NCBI GenBank assembly: GCA_019459485.1
Contig: JAIBEZ010000035.1
Coordinates: 1 to 64,000, forward strand
Length of the DNA: 64,000 nucleotides
Direction: 5' to 3'
Origin: Prolixibacteraceae bacterium
GTDB lineage: Bacteria; Bacteroidota; Bacteroidia; Bacteroidales; Prolixibacteraceae
The position numbers were made by a program, and so were the translations under genes. Below are positions 13,062 to 38,391 of the stretch, piece by piece. The notes under the pieces are model-generated. The model was given only the letters and a program-made list of their open reading frames with translations, was not told the origin of the DNA and ran no database searches. The first letter of the stretch is position 1. Each line of letters begins with the position of its first letter.

Positions 13062-13126
13062 AACCACATAGACACATAGAACACATTAGGAAATTAAAAC
13101 TATGTGACCTATGTGCCTATGCGGTT
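13062..13126. repeat. Imperfect inverted repeat in hisD-hisC gap (CACATAG family)
   Basis: AACCACATAGACACATAGAACACAT ... ACTATGTGACCTATGTGCCTATGCGGTT. Confidence 0.8.
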
Positions 13127-14171: not shown

Positions 14172-14180
14172 AATTATAAA

Positions 14181-14340
14181 GAATATCGAAGTGGCGCCCG
14201 TTCTACATTCCTTATTTCTTGTTCGATATTCTATATTTAAAAAAAAATGAAAAAATAAGAAACGCCGAATAAGAAATAAGGAATATCGAAATGCCGCCCG
14301 TTCGACATTTCTTGTTTTTTGATCGCTATTCGCTATTTAA
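14181..14340. repeat. Two palindromic 7-nt-period units (14181-14231; 14254-14340) upstream of the first four-helix-bundle gene
   Basis: AAATAAG AAACGCC GAATAAG AAATAAG GAATATC GAAATGC CGCCCG TTCGACA TTTCTTG TTTTTTG ATCGCTA TTCGCTA TTT. Confidence 0.85.
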
Positions 14341-14350
14341 AATTTCAAAA

Positions 14351-14710
14351 ATGGAAGAAAGACGATTTGATTTAGAAGATCGATTAATTGATTTTGCATT
14401 ACGAGTTGATGAAATTGTTGAATCTTTGCCAAGCACAAAACTGGCTAATCATATAGGCAATCAATTAATTCGTTGTGGAACTGCTCCTGCACTAAACTAT
14501 GGAGAAGCACAATCAGCCGAATCAACTGCCGATTTCATTCATAAATTGAAAATTATTTTAAAGGAATTACGTGAAAGTCGAATTTGTCTGAAAATCATTC
14601 AGAAAAAGCCGCTATTAAATCTGGAAAGATTGGTTGCCATTATTCAGGAAAATAATGAACTTATTGCGATATTTTTGAAAAGTATAGAAACTGCAAAAAA
14701 GAAAAAATAA
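14351..14710 (+). CDS. Four-helix-bundle protein (23S rRNA IVS / S23-like family)
   Basis: FDLEDRLIDFALRVDEIVESLP...ALNYGEAQSAESTADFIHKLKIILKELRES; shares ALNYGEAQSAES with 18253-18627. Confidence 0.88.
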   Translation: MEERRFDLEDRLIDFALRVDEIVESLPSTKLANHIGNQLIRCGTAPALNYGEAQSAESTADFIHKLKIILKELRESRICLKIIQKKPLLNLERLVAIIQENNELIAIFLKSIETAKKKK

Positions 14711-14791
14711 GAAACACCGAATGAGAAATAAGGAACATCGAAGTGCCGCCCGTTCGACATTTCTTATTTCTTGTTCTTTATTCGATATTTA
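14704..14791. repeat. Second copy of the ~87-bp 7-nt-period unit, downstream of the first four-helix-bundle gene
   Basis: Direct near-copy of 14254-14340 at offset ~452 bp. Confidence 0.88.
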
Positions 14792-14799
14792 TAAAACAC

Positions 14800-15922: not shown

Positions 15923-16807
15923 ATGAAAAGTATCAAACCCCTAAGAGAAAAGAAAAATACAGCAATTTTGCTGATTCACTGCCCTGATCGACAGGGAATT
16001 CTGGCAACTGTTACCGAATTCCTGAACAAAAACAACGGGAATATCATTTACCTCGACCAATATGTTGACCGTGCAGAAATGATTTTCTACATGCGGGTTG
16101 AATGGGAATTGCATGGTTTTGCCATTCCTGAAGATAAAATCAATGAATATTTCTCTACTCTGATTGCCGATAAGCTCGAAATGAATTATTCGCTTCATTT
16201 TTCGAAGCAGATTCCGCGTATGGCCATTTTTGTATCAAAGATGTCACATTGTCTGTTCGATATGCTTTCGCGTTACACTGCGGGCGAATGGGATGTTGAA
16301 ATACCGGTGATTATCAGTAACCACATGGATTTGGCACCTGTTGCACAGCGTTTCGACATTGAATTTGCCTTCGTGCCGGTTACCGCCGAAACCAAAGCAG
16401 AACAGGAAGCGCTTGAAGTTGAATTGTTGGAAAAACACAAGGTCGATTTTATTGTGCTTGCCCGTTACATGCAGGTACTTTCTCCTGAATTTGTTGCGAA
16501 GTTTCCGAACCGGATCATCAATATTCACCATTCGTTTTTGCCTGCATTTGCCGGAGCAAAACCTTATCATGCAGCCTATGAACGCGGTGTGAAAATTATC
16601 GGTGCAACCAGTCATTATGTGACCAGCGATCTGGATGGTGGCCCAATTATCGAACAGGATGTAACCCGTTGCAACCATACTGATACCGTTGAGCGTTTGG
16701 TACGTAAAGGCCGCGATCTGGAAAAGATAGTACTTTCACATGCCGTTTTTAAACATTTGCAGCGCAAAGTGCTGGTTTATAAGAATAAAACGGTGGTGTT
16801 TAACTAG
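15923..16807 (+). CDS. purU: Formyltetrahydrofolate deformylase
   Basis: N-terminal ACT-like LIHCPDRQGILATVTEFL; formyltransferase-like NIHHSFLPAFAGAKPYHAAYERGVKIIGATSHYVT. Confidence 0.95.
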   Translation: MKSIKPLREKKNTAILLIHCPDRQGILATVTEFLNKNNGNIIYLDQYVDRAEMIFYMRVEWELHGFAIPEDKINEYFSTLIADKLEMNYSLHFSKQIPRMAIFVSKMSHCLFDMLSRYTAGEWDVEIPVIISNHMDLAPVAQRFDIEFAFVPVTAETKAEQEALEVELLEKHKVDFIVLARYMQVLSPEFVAKFPNRIINIHHSFLPAFAGAKPYHAAYERGVKIIGATSHYVTSDLDGGPIIEQDVTRCNHTDTVERLVRKGRDLEKIVLSHAVFKHLQRKVLVYKNKTVVFN

Positions 16808-16808
16808 T

Positions 16809-16886
16809 TTCAGGTTCCAAGTTTCAAGTTTCAAGTTGGGGTGCAACTTTGGATATTGAATATTGATTATTGAGCATTGGATATTT
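16809..16886. repeat. Two adjacent 7-nt-period arrays (CAAGTTT and GAATATT families)
   Basis: CAGGTTC CAAGTTT CAAGTTT CAAGTTG ; GGATATT GAATATT GATTATT GAGCATT GGATATT. Confidence 0.85.
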
Positions 16887-17439: not shown

Positions 17440-17447
17440 AAAGTTAG

Positions 17448-17519
17448 TAGCGCGTAGCAGAATCGAACTGCCATCTCCGGATTGAGAAACCGGTTTCCTA
17501 ACCGTTAGAAGAACGCGCC
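17448..17519 (-). tRNA. tRNA-Glu (anticodon CTC)
   Basis: Minus-strand cloverleaf: 7-bp acceptor GGCGCGT/ACGCGCT, D-arm with U11-A24 and U13-G22, anticodon loop TTCTCAA (31-39 mismatch), 4-nt variable loop, T-arm GGCAG-TTCGATT-CTGCT. Confidence 0.9.
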
Positions 17520-17603: not shown

Positions 17604-18203
17604 ATGAATATCGTAATCATTAAATATAATGCGGGGAATATTGAATCGGTCAACAATGCACTACAGCGCTTGGGAGTGAATGCCGAAATTACCGGAGACC
17701 ATGAAAAAATCAGGGCAGCGGATAAAGTGATTTTTCCCGGAGTGGGAGAGGCCAGTACCACCATGGCTTTCCTGAAAAAAGAAGGGCTGGATCAACTCAT
17801 TCCAGAGTTAAAACAACCGGTTTTGGGAATTTGCCTCGGTTTGCAGCTTATGTGCAGCCATTCCGAAGAAAATGATACTCTGTGTTTGGGCATTTTTGAT
17901 GAACAAGTCAAAAGATTCATTCCTGAACCAGGAAAGGAATATATTACCAAAGTTCCGCACATGGGCTGGAACAGCATTGGCCAGTTGAAAAGCGGAATTT
18001 TCGATCTGTCGCTCGACCAGCAATATGTGTATTTTGTGCATTCGTATCATGCCGCGGTGGGCGAACATACAGCCGCCGTGTGCAATTACATCAATCCTTT
18101 CAGCGCGGCTTTGCACCGCGACAACTTTTACGCCACCCAGTTTCATCCTGAAAAAAGCGGAACTGTTGGCGCGAGAATATTAGAGAATTTTTTGAAGTTG
18201 TGA
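17604..18203 (+). CDS. hisH: Imidazole glycerol phosphate synthase, glutaminase subunit
   Basis: PVLGICLGLQLMCSHSEE; VYFVHSYHA; YATQFHPEKSG. Confidence 0.96.
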   Translation: MNIVIIKYNAGNIESVNNALQRLGVNAEITGDHEKIRAADKVIFPGVGEASTTMAFLKKEGLDQLIPELKQPVLGICLGLQLMCSHSEENDTLCLGIFDEQVKRFIPEPGKEYITKVPHMGWNSIGQLKSGIFDLSLDQQYVYFVHSYHAAVGEHTAAVCNYINPFSAALHRDNFYATQFHPEKSGTVGARILENFLKL

Positions 18204-18207
18204 AATT

Positions 18208-18249
18208 GATTAACGATTGAAGATTAACGATCAACGATTTTAGATTTTA
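18208..18249. repeat. Six 7-nt repeats upstream of the second four-helix-bundle gene
   Basis: GATTAAC GATTGAA GATTAAC GATCAAC GATTTTA GATTTTA. Confidence 0.9.
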
Positions 18250-18252
18250 ATT

Positions 18253-18627
18253 ATGACACCACGTGAATTAGAAGATAGGCTCATTGTTTTTGCAGTAAAT
18301 ATTATCCGATTGTCGGATGGGATTAAACCATCAATTGGAGGGAAAAATCTGGCAGAACAAATTGTTCGATCCAGTTCATCAACAGCCTTGAATTATGGAG
18401 AAGCACAAAGTGCCGAATCTGGAAGAGATTTTGTCCATAAACTTGGTATTTGCCTCAAAGAGATGCGTGAAACATTTATTAATCTTCGGATTATTGATGG
18501 TGCAAAACTTCATGGGGATCATCAATTGATAAACCAGTTGAAATCGGAGTGTAATGAGCTTATCTCAATTTTTGTTAAAAGTATTGAAACTAGCAAGCGA
18601 AAGCAAGGTACCTTACCGCCCAAATAA
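18253..18627 (+). CDS. Four-helix-bundle protein (23S rRNA IVS / S23-like family), second copy
   Basis: RELEDRLIVFAVNIIRLSDGI...STALNYGEAQSAESGRDFVHKLGICLKEMRET. Confidence 0.88.
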   Translation: MTPRELEDRLIVFAVNIIRLSDGIKPSIGGKNLAEQIVRSSSSTALNYGEAQSAESGRDFVHKLGICLKEMRETFINLRIIDGAKLHGDHQLINQLKSECNELISIFVKSIETSKRKQGTLPPK

Positions 18628-18630
18628 TTC

Positions 18631-18744
18631 GTTAATCCTCAATCGTTAGTCTCTAATCGTTAATCTTTTTTTTCTCATGATCAACATCCAACCGCTTTTT
18701 CATAATATCGTTAATCTTCAATCGTTAATCTCTAATCGTTAATC
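18631..18744. repeat. Two copies of five 7-nt repeats, inverted relative to 18208-18249
   Basis: 18631-18665 GTTAATC CTCAATC GTTAGTC TCTAATC GTTAATC; 18710-18744 GTTAATC TTCAATC GTTAATC TCTAATC GTTAATC. Confidence 0.9.
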
Positions 18745-18747
18745 AAA

Positions 18748-19479
18748 ATGATCACTATTATTCCCGCAATAGACCTTATCGACGCCAAATGTGTTCGTCT
18801 TTCGCAAGGCGACTACAACCAGAAAACAGTGTATAACGAGAATCCGCTCGAAGTGGCCAAAATGTTCGAAGACGCCGGAATCACCCGTTTGCATTTGGTT
18901 GATTTGGATGGCGCCAAAGCCAAACACATTGTCAACCACAAAGTATTGGAATTGATTGCCTCAAAAACCAAATTGGTGATCGACTTTGGAGGCGGCCTGA
19001 AATCGGACGAAGACTTGCGCGTTGCTTTTGAAAGTGGTGCACAAATGGTTACCGGAGGAAGCATTGCCGTGAAAGACCGCGACACTTTCCTGCATTGGAT
19101 CGAAACATATGGCTCTGAAAAAATCATTCTTGGTGCCGATGCCAAAGACAAAATGATTGCTGTGAGCGGCTGGCAGGAAGTTTCAGAACTTTCCATTCTC
19201 GATTTTATTGAAAGCTATACCAGCAAAGGCATCCGGCAGGTAATTTCTACGGACATTGCCCGCGATGGAATGTTAACCGGTCCGAGCATCGATTTATACA
19301 AAGAAATCATGTCTCAGTTCCCTGAACTCGGACTGATTGCCAGTGGCGGCATTGCCACCATGAAAGACATTTACGAACTCGACGAAATGGGCATTCCAGG
19401 TGTTATTACCGGAAAAGCGATTTATGAAGGAAGAATTAGTATGGAAGAAATCAAACTATATAATCTTAATAATTTATAA
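18748..19479 (+). CDS. hisA: Phosphoribosylformimino-5-aminoimidazole carboxamide ribotide isomerase
   Basis: [42 protein letters not shown]. Confidence 0.96.
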
Positions 19480-20871: not shown

Positions 20872-20909
20872 TTAACTTTGAACTTTAAACTCGGAACTTT
20901 AAACTGATT
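20872..20909. repeat. 7-nt-period array (AACTTTR family)
   Basis: AACTTTG AACTTTA AACTCGG AACTTTA AACTGAT. Confidence 0.8.
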
Positions 20910-38295: not shown

Positions 38296-38303
38296 TAAAA
38301 AAA

Positions 38304-38391
38304 GTCTCAGTATTCAGTCTCAGTATTCAGTCTCAGTGTTCAGTCTCAGTATTCAGTTGGCTTACTCCATGCTCCGTGCTCCATGCCCTAC
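38304..38391. repeat. 6+7-nt alternating array and adjacent 7-nt array
   Basis: (AGTCTCAGTRTTC)x4 then ACTCCAT GCTCCGT GCTCCAT GCCCTAC. Confidence 0.85.

Follow-up and report, generated by a model that had tools for sequence, protein, structure and literature searches.

A four-helix-bundle gene between inverted heptamer arrays at hisH-hisA, probably a copy of a small mobile element

Structure of the cassette between hisH and hisA

The window analyzed here, a stretch of 64,000 nucleotides (nt) of contig JAIBEZ010000035.1 from a Prolixibacteraceae bacterium, carries between hisH and hisA a cassette (positions 18208 to 18744) in which a small gene for a four-helix-bundle protein is enclosed by tandem heptamer arrays (Table 1). 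We consider it likely that this cassette belongs to a family of small mobile elements, each with a PF05635 four-helix gene between inverted heptamer arrays.

The left array reads GATTAAC GATTGAA GATTAAC GATCAAC GATTTTA GATTTTA. A preliminary description of the sequence had placed six heptamers upstream of the gene and two five-heptamer arrays in the opposite orientation downstream, and all were recovered at the expected positions. It had also paired a 24-nt stretch with the terminal array with two mismatches; in fact, the two arms are complementary at 24/24 positions. In the predicted RNA fold of the whole cassette, this stem closes the structure (minimum free energy z score of -3.8; 0 shuffles equally good). 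When the intergenic DNA of the window and of 400 kb of one relative was scanned, 7 was the sole unit length among 5 to 12 that was clearly enriched (14 arrays versus 0.2 expected), and thus the heptamer arrays are not due to chance.

Table 1. Coordinates of the cassette, its neighbors, and the second four-helix gene of the window
Feature	Position	Strand	Remarks
Left terminal array, six heptamers, GATTAAC type	18208..18249	+	Sequence, Tandem Repeats Finder (TRF) row 18208-18239, period-7 scan
Left arm, perfect 24-bp stem, GATTAACGATTGAAGATTAACGAT	18208..18231	+	Exact reverse complement of 18707-18730
Four-helix-bundle protein gene (PF05635/TIGR02436), 124 amino acids	18253..18627	+	Open reading frame (ORF) open
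Right proximal array, five heptamers, inverted orientation	18631..18665	-	Sequence, TRF 18629-18665
T8 run 3' of proximal array	18666..18673	+	
Right terminal array, five heptamers	18710..18744	-	Sequence, TRF 18707-18744; ends 3 nt short of hisA ATG
Right arm, 24-bp stem	18707..18730	+	Closing stem of RNA fold
hisH, left neighbor (target gene)	17604..18203	+	
hisA, right neighbor	18748..19479	+	
Sibling four-helix gene between hisC and hisB, different repeats	14351..14710	+	
Downstream copy of the sibling's repeat	14711..14799	+	Other copies ~14178-14245, ~14258-14345

The four-helix protein

The product of the cassette gene matched PF05635 (23S_rRNA_IVP; E value of 3.4e-10, 40.5 bits with a cut-off of 33.8) and TIGR02436 (four helix bundle protein; E value of 6.2e-20, 71.4 bits with a cut-off of 24), and PF05635 was the sole domain in a Pfam search of the cassette ORF. 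Its AlphaFold model has four helices with a mean pLDDT of 96.5. The solved relatives found by sequence were 2RLD (BT_0352) and 2GSC (XCC0516), with five chains in each entry. In the fold comparison, 2RLD gave a TM score of 0.81, and further down stood Avd of a diversity-generating retroelement (DGR) (4DWL) and a DGR ribonucleoprotein (8UB7). The dN/dS ratio was 0.04 to 0.06 for the window gene against its orthologues and 0.03 to 0.11 across cassettes, copies at different sites included; therefore, the four-helix protein is under purifying selection. Defense-system and PHROG profiles gave no meaningful match, and a search for a phage origin of the cassette gave 0 matches in 50,697 phage records.

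Inverted arrays around four-helix genes

Inverted matches were scored between the 100 nt before and the 130 nt after each of 144 four-helix genes from the family. The best one per gene had a median of 13.75, versus 8 in 309 control genes, and 58% of the four-helix genes lay above the 99th percentile of the controls (Mann-Whitney p=2e-46). As these 144 genes are not independent, a second test admitted a single cassette for each combination of clade and junction and used a between-clade control. Cognate left and right arrays matched in 65% of the resulting 68 nonredundant cassettes, versus 1.0% for mismatched clades (p=1e-31). Lag-7 autocorrelation was 0.43 to 0.45 in the flanks versus 0.30 to 0.31 in the controls. 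Among 332 flanks, the best unit length was 7 in 109, 14 in 39, and 8 in 23 of 180 scoring arrays, the remainder having 9 or 13, while shuffled flanks yielded 0 scoring arrays; the median array length was 4.9 to 5.0 units, a value biased by the threshold.

The pattern extends widely. In a sample of 80 loci of many phyla, which takes in Chloroflexi, Ignavibacteria, Desulfobacteraceae, Phycisphaerales, and the candidate phyla radiation (CPR), flanks matched in 51% of cognate versus 3% of noncognate pairs (p=1e-30), and inverted flanks were seen in Chloroflexi, Ignavibacteria, Planctomycetes, Proteobacteria, CPR, and Cyanobacteria. Plasmid loci, mostly cyanobacterial, matched at the same level in 12 of 20 cases versus 6% of mismatched pairs; the arrays beside four-helix genes on cyanobacterial plasmids included TAGGGAG (Nostoc edaphicum), GGGAACA (Nostoc C052), and GGGTGTA (Calothrix).

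Heptamers are over-represented simple sequence repeats in many bacteria (reviewed in PMC4679880 and PMC4692102), so the arrays might be ordinary slippage repeats or G-quadruplex elements to which the four-helix genes are incidental. We give this explanation hardly any credence, since matching inverted arrays flank four-helix genes, not controls, and move with them, and the GATTAAC arrays have no G-tracts. As far as the association is concerned, the control-gene comparison refutes the view that the arrays are incidental.

Evidence for movement as a unit

The hisH-hisA junction differs across the genus. With hisH and hisA aligned, the gap is only 2 to 5 bp, and thus empty, in six congeners (G003, G012, G013, G015, G016, and G019). 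The GATTAAC cassette occupies it in G000, G009, G017, G018, G021, and G022. Other PF05635 genes, whose arrays also differ, occupy it in G011 (CAAAGTACC), in G004 and G024 (AGTTCCTTAG with CAGGAACT), and in G005. Thus, this one operon junction has received several independent hits. Two other kinds of insert were observed here: ORF-less CCTCCCC...GGGGAGG inverted elements of 112 to 211 bp in G007, G020, G025, and G036 (L017, L027, L031, and L035), whose repeats are of another kind than the cassette arrays, and a 1428-bp, apparently coding insert in G006 (L034).

Besides hisH/hisA, the GATTAAC-array clade is found at carA/carB, at argG/argC, and between an ABC ATPase/permease pair. Cassettes at unrelated junctions were 93% identical over 533 bp (L150 and L153) and, within genome G009, 88% identical over 532 bp (L149 and L150). 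When near-identical copies were aligned, homology started and stopped in the arrays.

On Nostocales plasmids, relatives with 98% identical flanks lack the cassette, revealing clean insertions of 414 to 428 bp. The empty site reads AAAAAGTAATTAACAAAT and the occupied site reads AAAAA-GTAAT-AAATCAG...TTCTTCTTT-GTAAT-TAACAAAT; the 5-bp duplication GTAAT lies around the upstream stop codon and was computed for two records sharing one insertion. In two paralogous plasmids of Nostoc ATCC 53789, cassettes sit in neighboring junctions of one operon, each plasmid being empty where the other is filled. For one cassette of this strain, a 5-bp repeat, TTCTA, can be seen by eye if an adjacent 1-nt difference is allowed; it was not called by the script. 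The features expected of a transposable element, namely, a unit at several sites, empty sites, and a target duplication (exact in one insertion), were found. Where the preliminary description saw a local two-cassette system, the evidence favors a mobile element of wide distribution, for which empty sites and one exact 5-bp target duplication were observed.

A decayed remnant with arrays and a truncated four-helix gene lies at 660-791 of L317 (Nostoc C052 pC052_E); in Trichormus this site is full, and in Nostoc linckia it is empty. Four-helix cassettes were also seen inside CRISPR operons (cas6/cas4 and cas10/cmr3; L292, L296, and L301) that have relatives without the cassette.

Placement between co-oriented operon genes

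Of 67 nonredundant cassettes, 53 lie between two genes co-oriented with the cassette (35% expected, p=3e-13). Tight coupling characterizes the gene pairs at insertion sites, examples being carA/carB, mutA/mutB, hisH/hisA, and cysD/cysN. The element would insert at or close to the stop codon of the gene upstream, mostly in sense orientation between operon genes that share one direction; the cassette would therefore probably be co-transcribed.

A host regulatory cassette could be placed in the same way. Its protein would bind the arrays in the operon mRNA and tune translation or processing of the downstream gene, in the manner of TRAP or CsrA and to the benefit of the host. The distance of just a few nt from array to following start codon, the tight coupling of the interrupted pairs, the sense orientation bias, and purifying selection are all consistent with such a role, and a translational role has been suggested for TAACTGA repeats (PMC4679880). 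However, close relatives have the same operons without the cassette, unrelated versions occur at the same junction, and the host genes are functionally unrelated, which makes host regulation unlikely.

Array-protein covariation and solo arrays

The preliminary description suggested that each protein may recognize its own heptamer, by analogy with RAYT/REP pairing but without a transposase motif. At unrelated junctions, arrays matched in 62% of cases when the proteins were at least 70% identical, in 22% at 50 to 70% identity, in 0.8% at 35 to 50%, and in 0.3% below 35%. The idea of cognate pairing is upheld to the extent that arrays covary with the protein clade. The analogy held in part: solo arrays of the cassette families are scattered in the genome, but the ORF encodes no Y1 transposase.

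The 15 solo arrays compared, which included 16804-16881, 20872-20905, and 38303-38357 of the window, matched cassette arrays better than all 40 of their phase-permuted versions in 8 cases. After an alanine racemase-like gene (alr; assigned by eye from its C-terminus), G009 has a full cassette; behind the identical stop codon, 7 congeners have just solo arrays of the cassette's family and 4 have none. Most likely, solo arrays are deletion footprints or nonautonomous copies, although the alr junction fits footprints and landing sites alike. In the window, solo heptamer or 13-mer arrays at 16804-16885, 20872-20905, and 38303-38357 belong to families that match four-helix cassette arrays in relatives. 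Between hisD and hisC (13062-13120), ORF-less inverted CACATAG heptamer arrays form a hairpin resembling a miniature inverted-repeat transposable element (MITE); no cassette with the CACATAG heptamer was found.

Search for a mobilizing enzyme

Several results weigh against a mobile element. The exact 5-bp duplication represents one insertion only, in two records, and TTCTA needs the 1-nt offset; further empty/occupied pairs, too diverged, gave no clean duplication, and none was found at the window's own cassette copy. About one-third of four-helix genes have no clear cognate array, some having direct rather than inverted repeats. No catalytic domain was found in the cassette, and no mobilizing enzyme was identified among the reverse transcriptase (RT) and Y1 transposase candidates. 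An RVT_1 domain is missing in 7 of the 23 congeners, one of which is G011, a single-contig genome with 12 four-helix matches, and heptamer arrays were found at none of six inspected Y1_Tnp loci, several of which have TCCCGTACGGGA-type palindromes instead.

For retro-mobility, the cassette RNA would be bound by the Avd-like protein and reverse-transcribed by an RT acting in trans, a route in keeping with the Avd-like fold (including the DGR ribonucleoprotein 8UB7), the RNA stem, and the sense bias in operons. We find it distinctly improbable: besides the congeners without RVT_1, the window's genome has as its sole RVT_1 match a frame-broken RT (G000:C3:59915-60534; L283 and L284), and a 5-bp duplication fits staggered cuts at the DNA level equally well. 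RT as the mover was not supported.

Y1 transposases (PF01797) are present in all 23 congeners, and the solo arrays are scattered like REPs, which would suit a REP/RAYT-like system in which these transposases mobilize the arrays, with the four-helix gene carried along as cargo. The different flanks at the six inspected loci and the variation of arrays by four-helix clade render this highly improbable, and Y1 transposase as the mover was likewise not supported.

Proposed mechanism and known systems

In the mobile-element explanation that we prefer, the family would comprise elements of ~410 to 560 bp with a single PF05635 gene and arrays of about four to six heptamers each, whose sequence is lineage-specific and would travel with the moving unit. 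After co-transcription, base pairing between the two arrays could enclose the gene in an RNA stem like that of 23S rRNA intervening sequences (IVSs). The protein may be an Avd-like nucleic-acid-binding ring, probably pentameric, that would recognize its own arrays in either RNA or DNA form; this recognition may serve persistence or mobility of the element.

A further-reaching proposal is tentative, and we hold it to be possible rather than probable: a new class of bacterial mobile elements whose sole protein is a pentameric four-helix ring reading about five heptamers, one per subunit, with the short tandemly repeated repetitive (STRR), GGGAATC, and perhaps TAACTGA repeats as its ends and footprints. 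One heptamer per subunit would resemble TRAP with its triplets. In support of this proposal, the median array has 4.9 to 5.0 units (the threshold-biased value given above), the unit is 7 or double that in most arrays, and both 2RLD and 2GSC contain five chains.

Among the closest known systems is the IVS of Coxiella burnetii 23S rRNA, which is 428 to 444 nt long, contains an S23p/IVP ORF, and is cut by RNase III (PMC4990558). The cassette shares with it a PF05635 protein, a similar size, an ORF inside complementary stem-forming ends (here the perfect 24-bp stem), and a sporadic distribution. However, the IVS is an rRNA insert that RNase III excises, whereas the cassette lies between operon genes, has heptamer-array ends, and occurs in many copies. 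The window cassette thus looks like an operon-dwelling relative of the IVS; it was not filed as an IVS because its location at hisH-hisA is not in rRNA.

Rehm et al. described heptamers GGGNATC/GGGGAYT in Xanthomonas and Nostoc between aligned ORFs, some as inverted pairs, on the coding strand just after stops and on the noncoding strand just before starts, with no general link to mobile elements (PMC4692102). Our arrays also lie between co-oriented ORFs with the same strand geometry, which is what paired cassette ends would give; those at Nostoc and Calothrix plasmid four-helix genes are, like STRRs, tandem, intergenic, hairpin-forming heptamers. The four-helix family is unmentioned in PMC4692102, whereas the arrays described here form the termini of a four-helix element. 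The TAACTGA arrays of Beggiatoaceae, directly upstream of start codons and shared with Cyanobacteria and Bacteroidetes, had no evident transfer mechanism (MacGregor, PMC4679880); these too are intergenic heptamer arrays.

RAYT/REP and other MITE-type elements likewise combine a gene and terminal repeats with dispersed solo repeats. In contrast, the cassette has no Y1 (HUH) transposase, and its array sequence varies by lineage, with the period remaining close to 7. Avd of DGRs has the same fold (4DWL and 8UB7), but no RT, template, or variable repeat adjoins the cassette. Foldback elements of eukaryotes also have terminal inverted repeats built of internal tandem repeats, with unrelated proteins and hosts. 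No literature linking the four-helix family with heptamer arrays was found in a search that left most subscription literature outside.

The mobile-element explanation would join the functionless "S23/23S rRNA IVP" family and the unexplained excess of intergenic heptamers in bacteria in one element of many phyla, and it predicts both the origin of the arrays and their placement immediately behind stop codons and ahead of start codons. Apparent "partners" of the family in operons or CRISPR loci, including a listed CRISPR-linked IVP member (PMC10910872), may reflect passenger insertions. In addition, the cassette may offer a simple protein-repeat recognition code.

Other features of the window

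The sibling four-helix gene between hisC and hisB encodes a protein 46% identical to that at hisH-hisA. The two cassettes had been called architecturally identical, which needs correction: the repeats at hisC-hisB are three direct, hairpin-like copies of ~67 to 90 nt, two 5' and one 3' of the gene. A tRNA-Glu (CTC) gene was observed at 17447-17519 on the minus strand, between a thioredoxin-like gene and hisH and antisense to the his genes.
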